DNA from: Candidatus Falkowiibacteriota bacterium
GTDB lineage: Bacteria; Patescibacteriota; Patescibacteriia; Patescibacteriales; UBA12465
Direction: 5' to 3'
NCBI GenBank assembly: GCA_009885285.1
Contig: VFKX01000014.1
Coordinates: 1 to 32,586, forward strand
Length of the DNA stretch: 32,586 nucleotides
Shown: in pieces, positions 6,537 to 17,370 of the stretch
Position numbering within the stretch: position 1 is the stretch's first letter
Layout: each line of letters begins with the position of its first letter
Notes under the pieces: generated by a model
Told to the model about the DNA's origin: nothing
What the model saw: only the letters and a program-made list of their open reading frames with translations
Databases searched by the model: none
Translations under genes and position numbers: made by a program

Positions 6537-6734
6537 TTAAAACATGATAAGTACTCCGTCACACATAGCGCTGCCCGTACTCTTGGTTGGGTAGGCTTCA
6601 TTGAAGTTCAGTTCAATCTCAGTTAGCCCTATTTGTTTTAAGCCTTTCATGGCTTCGCTGTAGAAATTTGCAGTTTGCAGAATTTCTGTGGCCATTTCTT
6701 CTACTTCTTTTCTGGCCTGAGTTTTTTCATCCAT
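6537..6734 (-). CDS. Small protein of unknown function
   Basis: I do not recognise this 65-residue protein. The N-terminal two thirds (MDEKTQARKEVEEMATEIL and on) look helical and acidic, and the tail is hydrophobic and Gly-rich (SAMCDGVLIMF). There is no signal peptide or membrane segment. Support for a real gene comes from its surroundings: a near-consensus promoter (TTGACT, 17 bases, TATTAT) upstream and a strong terminator directly after the stop. No good Shine-Dalgarno precedes the ATG. Confidence 0.65.
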   Translation of the reverse strand: MDEKTQARKEVEEMATEILQTANFYSEAMKGLKQIGLTEIELNFNEAYPTKSTGSAMCDGVLIMF

Positions 6735-6839: not shown

Positions 6840-7511
6840 TTATTGCTTCTTCATCTCTCCCTCCCGCCATTCTTTTATCTTCTTATGATCTCCAGAGAGG
6901 AGGACTTTTGGTACCGGATATTTTTTCTTGTTGGCGATAAATATTTCAGGACGGGTATATTGTGGATATTCTAAAACACCAGTTTCTGAATGTGATTCCT
7001 CAATGATACTTTGCTTATTACCTAGAACTCCAGGCAGGAGGCGAGTAATGGAGTCAATGATTGTTAGGGCCGGTAATTCGCCGCCGGTTAGCACATAGTC
7101 GCCGATTGATATCTCTTCGTCAATAAACTTCTTGATGCGGGCGTCAACACCCTCATAGCGGCCACAGACGAAGATGACCTCATCCAGCTTGGAATACTTC
7201 TGAGCTAGGGCTTGGTTCCATTTTTGGCCGCTGGCAGACATCAAGAGAACCTTTCGTTTCTTCGGATTAACTTTCTTATTTGTTTTCTTGATAGCCTCCA
7301 GGGCTTTATAGAGTGGCTCAATTTTCATCAGCATGCCCGCGCCGCCGCCATAGGGCGTGTCATCGACAGTTTTATGGTTATCGGTCGTCCAATCGCGCAG
7401 ATTGTGAATTTTAAAGCTGGCCGCTTTTTTTTCTCGGGCCCGCTTTAAAATACTCTCATTGAGATAAGAGTCGAAGATGCCAGGGAAGATGGTTAAGAGA
7501 TGGAATTTCAT
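6840..7511 (-). CDS. trmD: tRNA (guanine-N1-)-methyltransferase TrmD
   Basis: TrmD methylates G37 of tRNAs that read CNN codons, using S-adenosylmethionine and a trefoil-knot SPOUT fold. The 223-residue sequence carries DDTPYGGGAGMLMK, VCGRYEGVDARI, the knot loop EISIGDYVLTGGE, and LPGVLGNKQSIIEESHS followed by LEYPQYTRPEIF. It ends with VLLSGDHKKIKEWR, the C-terminal tRNA-binding helix. It is only slightly shorter than the usual 240-250 residues. Unlike the common rpsP-khpA-rimM-trmD-rplS arrangement, it stands alone here, about 1.1 kb from khpA and rpsP, with its own extended -10 promoter and terminator. Confidence 0.97.
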   Translation of the reverse strand: MKFHLLTIFPGIFDSYLNESILKRAREKKAASFKIHNLRDWTTDNHKTVDDTPYGGGAGMLMKIEPLYKALEAIKKTNKKVNPKKRKVLLMSASGQKWNQALAQKYSKLDEVIFVCGRYEGVDARIKKFIDEEISIGDYVLTGGELPALTIIDSITRLLPGVLGNKQSIIEESHSETGVLEYPQYTRPEIFIANKKKYPVPKVLLSGDHKKIKEWREGEMKKQ

Positions 7512-16971: not shown

Positions 16972-17042
16972 TCGGGGCGCTGGGAATTGAACCCAGTCAG
17001 CATGCTCCCAAAGCATGTGTACTACCGGTATACGACGCCCCG
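16972..17042 (-). tRNA. tRNA-Pro (TGG)
   Basis: Acceptor CGGGGCG pairs perfectly with CGCCCCG. The anticodon stem CATGC/GCATG encloses TTTGGGA, giving anticodon TGG. The discriminator is A and no CCA is encoded. It is the last of four tRNA genes in the cluster. Confidence 0.95.
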
Positions 17043-17060: not shown

Positions 17061-17132
17061 TGCCCCGGGTCAGAATCGAACTGACGACACAAGGATTTTC
17101 AATCCTTTGCTCTACCACTGAGCTACCGAGGC
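17061..17132 (-). tRNA. tRNA-Phe (GAA)
   Basis: Acceptor GCCTCGG pairs with CCGGGGC (one wobble). The anticodon stem AAGGA/TCCTT encloses TTGAAAA, so the anticodon is GAA. The T-loop is TTCGATT. No CCA is encoded. Confidence 0.95.
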
Positions 17133-17157: not shown

Positions 17158-17230
17158 TTGCGGGGGTCGGACTCGAACCGACGACCTCTAGGTTATGGGC
17201 CTAGCGAGCTGCCAACTGCTCTACCCCGCT
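17158..17230 (-). tRNA. Initiator tRNA-fMet (CAT) with C33
   Basis: Initiator features are present: an unpaired 1-72 position (A1 and A72), followed by GCGGGG pairing with CCCCGC, D-stem GAGC/GCTC with A11-T24, and anticodon CAT. Two features are odd. The anticodon loop reads CCCATAA, so the near-universal T33 is C. The anticodon stem CTAGG/CCTAG gives A29-T41 in place of the first of the three G-C pairs usual in bacterial initiators. The fold is otherwise regular and 73 bases long without CCA. It is the only initiator-like tRNA seen in this window. Confidence 0.93.
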
Positions 17231-17250: not shown

Positions 17251-17324
17251 TGGGCAATGGTGGATTCGAACCACCGACCTCAACATTATCAGTGTTGCGC
17301 TCTAACCAACTGAGCTAATTGCCC
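17251..17324 (-). tRNA. tRNA-Ile (GAT)
   Basis: Acceptor GGGCAAT pairs with ATTGCCC. The anticodon stem CAACA/TGTTG encloses CTGATAA, anticodon GAT, with the normal T33. It is the first tRNA after the cluster promoter. No CCA is encoded. Confidence 0.96.
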
Positions 17325-17341: not shown

Positions 17342-17370
17342 AATATAACAAAGAATAAATAAAAAGGCAA
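17342..17370 (-). promoter_or_regulatory. Promoter of the Ile-fMet-Phe-Pro tRNA operon
   Basis: On the minus strand TTGCCT (17370-17365) and TATATT (17347-17342) are 17 bases apart, with TGT before the -10. The expected start, near 17335, lies about 10 bases before tRNA-Ile, so the four tRNAs need not depend on holA transcription. Confidence 0.8.

Follow-up and report, generated by a model that had tools for sequence, protein, structure and literature searches.

Cytidine 33 in the initiator tRNA of a Falkowbacteria-type Patescibacterium: a conserved and apparently tolerated substitution

The DNA examined here, a stretch of 32,586 nucleotides referred to as the window, contains an initiator tRNA gene in which the canonical uridine at position 33 is absent and cytidine stands in its place. 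The gene probably encodes the single working initiator of its genome. C33 is genuine and inherited; this exchange of one pyrimidine for another, seen in the initiator only, would be nearly neutral. Real and conserved, it looks like a change that is tolerated, not like a novel mechanism of translation initiation.

The initiator tRNA gene and its cluster

The gene spans 73 nt on the minus strand (17158..17230) and reads, from 5' to 3', AGCGGGG TA GAGC AGTTGGCA GCTC G CTAGG CCCATAA CCTAG AGGTC GTCGG TTCGAGT CCGAC CCCCGC AA. Rfam RF00005 matched 17230-17158 (-) at full length, without truncation and with 58.4 bits; the ARAGORN call agrees, and the cloverleaf is both the minimum free energy fold and the centroid fold. 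Alignment with E. coli metZ places no Watson-Crick pair at position 1-72 (A1xA72, also evident from the Rfam match) and a purine-pyrimidine pair at 11-24 (A11-T24). These are the two features from which the first-pass annotation had claimed initiator identity, and together with both prediction programs they confirm, at the DNA level, that the gene encodes a bacterial initiator tRNA-Met(CAU).

The same annotation had reported two deviations from the usual initiator, C33 and A29-T41, and the metZ alignment bears out both. The anticodon loop, CCCATAA, occupies positions 32-38 (17193..17199, minus strand), with the bases C32, C33, C34, A35, T36, A37 and A38, so that C33 is its second base. The anticodon stem is formed by CTAGG at positions 27-31 (17200..17204, minus strand), which contains A29, and by CCTAG at positions 39-43 (17188..17192, minus strand), which contains T41. 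Its lower pairs are A29-T41, G30-C40 and G31-C39, leaving the run of three consecutive G-C pairs (29-41, 30-40 and 31-39) incomplete at 29-41. Three G-C pairs at this place are typical of initiators but variable. Since A-T also stands at 29-41 in 32/36 initiators of the family, the three pairs are not a strict requirement, and the gene stays a bacterial initiator tRNA.

In most respects the molecule resembles its E. coli counterpart. It shares with metZ a 1-72 mismatch with A72, A11-T24, the GAGC/GCTC D stem and the CAU anticodon, as well as C32, A37, A38, G30-C40 and G31-C39. Unlike metZ, it has C33 rather than U33, A29-U41 rather than G29-C41 and A1xA72 rather than C1xA72; its D loop is one base shorter, and the gene does not encode CCA.

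The initiator is the second of four tRNA genes called on the minus strand by ARAGORN and Rfam, in the order Ile-fMet-Phe-Pro: tRNA-Ile(GAU) comes first (17251..17324), tRNA-Phe(GAA) follows the initiator (17061..17132) and tRNA-Pro(UGG) is last (16972..17042). A promoter-like site with an extended -10 lies on the same strand just upstream of tRNA-Ile (17342..17370), and such sites are no commoner than chance. The same cluster occurs in named Falkowbacteria contigs, which identifies the source of the window as a Falkowbacteria-type Patescibacterium.

Conservation of C33 in the genome and the family

The genome of the window comprises 1.43 Mb in 118 contigs and is 95.3% complete; of its 43 tRNA matches, about 40 were read at position 33. 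All the others among these carry T33, the single elongator tRNA-Met included, and only the initiator deviates. No second initiator was found in this 95.3%-complete, 118-contig genome, and the gene in the window, with its CAU anticodon, is thus the sole initiator-type tRNA found there. As a separate observation, the genome has a tRNA-Ile with the anticodon UAU (L002, G000:C69:6-79), and a lysidine-type tRNA-Ile(CAU) was not seen among the roughly 40 tRNAs read; most bacteria differ in this respect.

Relatives were compared at positions 33 and 29-41, as the first-pass annotation had proposed, in 39 genomes of the family. All 36 initiators found there have C33, and all 38 elongator tRNA-Met genes found in the same genomes have T33. 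The stem pair varies: A29-T41 is present in 32/36 initiators and G29-C41 in the remaining 4/36. In these genes C33 is fixed across the family and the 29-41 pair is variable. The recurrence of the same C in every family initiator, together with the shared cluster in named Falkowbacteria, indicates that C33 is neither chance nor misassembly. Both findings that the annotation had named as fatal to its proposal, T33 and a canonical second initiator elsewhere in the genome, are absent from these data.

Distribution of C33 among bacteria

The sample of the class comprised 154 genomes, and initiators were typed in 113 of them: 75 have C33, 37 have T33 and one has both. C33 is the majority state in the class. 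One class genome (G516) has two different initiators, one with C33 and G31-C39 (contig C1:121905) and one with T33 and a G31-T39 wobble (contig C2:83576). Across the phylum, where 380 genomes were searched for an exact C33 pattern and the matching T33 pattern, the former occurred in 40 genomes and the latter in 175 (40/215 with C33); the class of the window accounts for 24 of the 40 and eight further families for the other 16. In the Saccharibacteria class, C33 was found in 7/115 genomes.

Beyond the phylum, a scan of species genomes yielded at least 116 C33 initiator stretches. Among the matches listed are Weissella, Leuconostoc inhae, Convivina intestini and Periweissella fabaria, each represented by a type strain or isolate, and Phycisphaerales with complete chromosomes. 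Further matches come from assemblies of Elusimicrobia, Omnitrophota, Erysipelotrichaceae, Saccharibacteria, Christensenella, Dependentiae and other groups. Two initiator genes are present in each of Weissella halotolerans, W. minor and W. uvarum, every one of them with C33. Within the Lactobacillaceae, C33 occurs in a minority, and Fructilactobacillus lindneri (L086) carries one C33 and one T33 initiator gene as neighbours (6646-6721 and 7250-7325). Matches in Nocardioides and Prevotella were not counted as C33 lineages because both metagenome bins also contain a T33 initiator, nor was a Ferruginibacter match, which is a single contig of a metagenome-assembled genome.

In Weissella, Leuconostoc, Phycisphaerae and Elusimicrobia, as in the window, C33 sits in a bacterial initiator that is often the only kind in its genome. 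Weissella and Phycisphaerae keep G29-C41, unlike the A29-T41 of the window, whereas the Elusimicrobia C33 initiators share A29-T41 but mostly have T1 with A72. In five of the Elusimicrobia genes (L042, L060, L108, L139 and L148) this T1 and A72 are pairable and replace the usual 1-72 mismatch.

The first-pass annotation had called C33 very unusual in bacteria. This does not hold, given its majority in the class and its recurrence in many phyla, cultured lactic acid bacteria included; the trait is recurrent rather than unique and more widely spread than had been supposed. The open-licence literature searched yielded no description of a bacterial initiator with C33; compilations of tRNA genes may include examples.

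Changes at position 33 and the 29-41 pair

The states observed at position 33 require at least 12 changes on a tree built from the 16S genes of 75 typed class genomes, compared with a mean of 22.8 and a minimum of 15 when the labels were shuffled 300 times. Fewer changes than the shuffled mean, yet still a dozen, mark position 33 as inherited but labile. Near sisters may differ in state, as with G110 (T33, T29-A41) and G210 (C33, G29-C41). In supported independent pairs, C33 tends to accompany a purine at 29, and T29 to accompany T33 (about 4.4 to 0 of 9 pairs, median p 0.125). Position 33 may accordingly be under some constraint. A general rule coupling 33 to 29-41 was rejected: the association is suggestive within the class, but Saccharibacteria have C33 with T29-A41. 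Several T33 initiators of the class, including those of G439, G518, G436, G432, G434, G533 and others, have T39, so that the anticodon stem has a G31-T39 wobble at its base.

A probably near-neutral substitution and its alternatives

The known roles of position 33 offer a rationale for a change confined to initiators. Acceptance in the A site and translocation have both been tied to the U-turn (PMC11231383). In the P site of the E. coli ribosome, the tRNA has its U-turn held by Lys129 and Arg130 of uS9, with Arg130 stacking on base 33 (PMC7550191). Pairs 29-41 and 30-40 are contacted from the minor groove by G1338 and A1339, and G1338 touches the 2'-OH of nucleotide 41 (PMC11497404). Elongator tRNAs would need U33 because the U-turn is required for A-site decoding and translocation. 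The initiator would enter the P site directly and on its way in skip the steps that the U-turn serves, which may explain why C33 is tolerated in initiators alone. The 30S subunit would hold the initiator anticodon loop in decoding shape through 16S 1338/1339 on the stem, 790, 966, 1400 and the C-terminal Lys-Arg of uS9, whose Arg could stack on either C33 or U33. Initiators would then be free to drift between U and C at position 33. The A29-U41 pair would be a mild change as well; it remains Watson-Crick and its purine stays in the same strand, so that G1338 should still make its contact in the minor groove.

Near-neutrality is favoured by the restriction of C33 to initiators, its repeated and reversible change, its wide recurrence, the existence of isolates with C33 only (Weissella) and the unchanged partners described below. 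It is opposed by the fixation of C33, rather than a scattered occurrence, inside large clades, a pattern that selection would equally give, and by the association of C33 with purine 29 (about 4.4 to 0 of 9 pairs).

Selection could also have acted on C33 as an anti-elongation feature, making the initiator a poor A-site substrate without the U-turn uridine, perhaps where other barriers are weak. The restriction to initiators and the repeated origin, extending to metazoan initiators (PMC9023262), agree with this, as does the importance of U33 for A-site function and translocation (PMC11231383). It is nevertheless unlikely, since the other barriers look intact in the window's initiator tRNA (the 1-72 mismatch, A11-T24 and the two remaining G-C stem pairs), most bacteria manage without C33, and switches between C33 and T33 are common in the class. 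A related proposal, also improbable, is that position 33 is an evolvable switch coupled to 29-41, with C33 kept mainly where the 30S grips the stem strongly, as an extra barrier to elongation. If so, U33 would be a requirement of elongators and not of tRNAs universally.

The first-pass annotation had favoured altered start-codon selection, with C33 and A29-U41 accompanied by matching changes in the 30S subunit or initiation factors. There are precedents: in E. coli, small changes in the 30S grip on the stem can shift start-codon discrimination (PMC11497404), and in mycoplasmas unusual stems are accompanied by altered rRNA, uS9, uS13 and IF3 (PMC10568206). The initiator of Mycoplasma pneumoniae has an AU/GC/GU anticodon stem, in which A29-U41 was already reported, and thus, like that of the window, begins the three conserved pairs with A-U (PMC10568206). 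Unlike it, the window initiator keeps G-C at 31-39, and its relatives keep the Lys-Arg end of uS9 and 16S 1338/1339.

Possible partners, 16S rRNA and uS9, were compared in relatives, both those with C33 and those with T33. Positions 790, 926, 1338 and 1339 are identical throughout, and 1400 is identical save in one T33 genome (G418); the C-terminal end of uS9 is Lys-Arg in both groups. Position 966 seemed at first to differ, with G in 14/15 C33 genomes and non-G in 7/12 T33 genomes among the first 27 scored, but the association disappeared once 79 genomes were scored (Fisher p 0.23) and did not hold on the tree (about 1.9 pairs agreeing, about 1.2 disagreeing), and the coupling was dropped. 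Among 16S 790, 926, 966, 1338, 1339 and 1400 and the uS9 tail, no partner adapted to C33 was found in the relatives, and changes in P-site 16S and the uS9 tail alongside the unusual initiator, as in mycoplasmas, are absent from them. The suggestion of adapted 30S contacts thus finds no counterpart in these molecules. With C33 also coexisting with a full G-C stem in Weissella, altered start-codon selection is quite unlikely. As a gauge of start-codon usage, the Shine-Dalgarno excess gave a very weak signal in the T33 genome G110 and in the C33 genomes G210, G123, G250 and G353.

A conversion of the genomic C33 to U, or its hypermodification, in the mature tRNA would be compatible with evidence drawn solely from DNA, but it is very unlikely, as editing would have to take place in many lineages to account for the wide spread and the frequent flips. 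We know of no C-to-U editing at position 33 of bacterial tRNA, which further counts against conversion. Finally, an assembly of 118 contigs and 95.3% completeness might raise the suspicion of an error in sequencing or assembly, or of a pseudogene whose canonical counterpart lies elsewhere. This is extremely improbable, since C33 stands in 36/36 initiators found in the family, in many independent assemblies and in isolate genomes, and since no second initiator was found in the genome of the window.

Significance

U33 is usually called universal in tRNA, and metazoan initiators are the exception known to us. A recurrent bacterial C33, fixed in whole families, would constitute a natural experiment on the role of U33, placing it in the A site and translocation rather than in the P site. 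The metazoan tRNA-iMet is similar in combining C33 with a CAU anticodon in the initiator only (PMC9023262). Unlike it, the window initiator has a bacterial body, a 1-72 mismatch, A-U at 29-41 and an independent origin. Furthermore, C33 occurs in lactic acid bacteria that are easy to grow and have close relatives with U33, which provides material testable in culture. Comparisons at hand include Fructilactobacillus lindneri, in which the two forms coexist, and Weissella set beside Lactobacillaceae with T33. The effect of C33 may prove to be nil, which would limit its importance.

Further observations on 16S rRNA genes of the class

Position 966 is normally G in bacteria, as m2G966, and U in archaea and eukaryotes. 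It is A in 28/80 class genomes, for instance in the 16S genes L160, L162, L178 and L181 (E. coli numbering), and T in a single genome (G418). Its changes on the tree are recurrent and independent of tRNA position 33. The usual RsmD product, m2G, is impossible on an A at this position. Position 1340, which adjoins the 1338/1339 P-site clamp, is T instead of A in the C33 genomes G123, G353, G210 and G137 (families f5 and f6). Several class 16S genes, such as L179, L180, L181 and L169, exceed 1.6 kb in span on E. coli coordinates and may contain insertions or introns.
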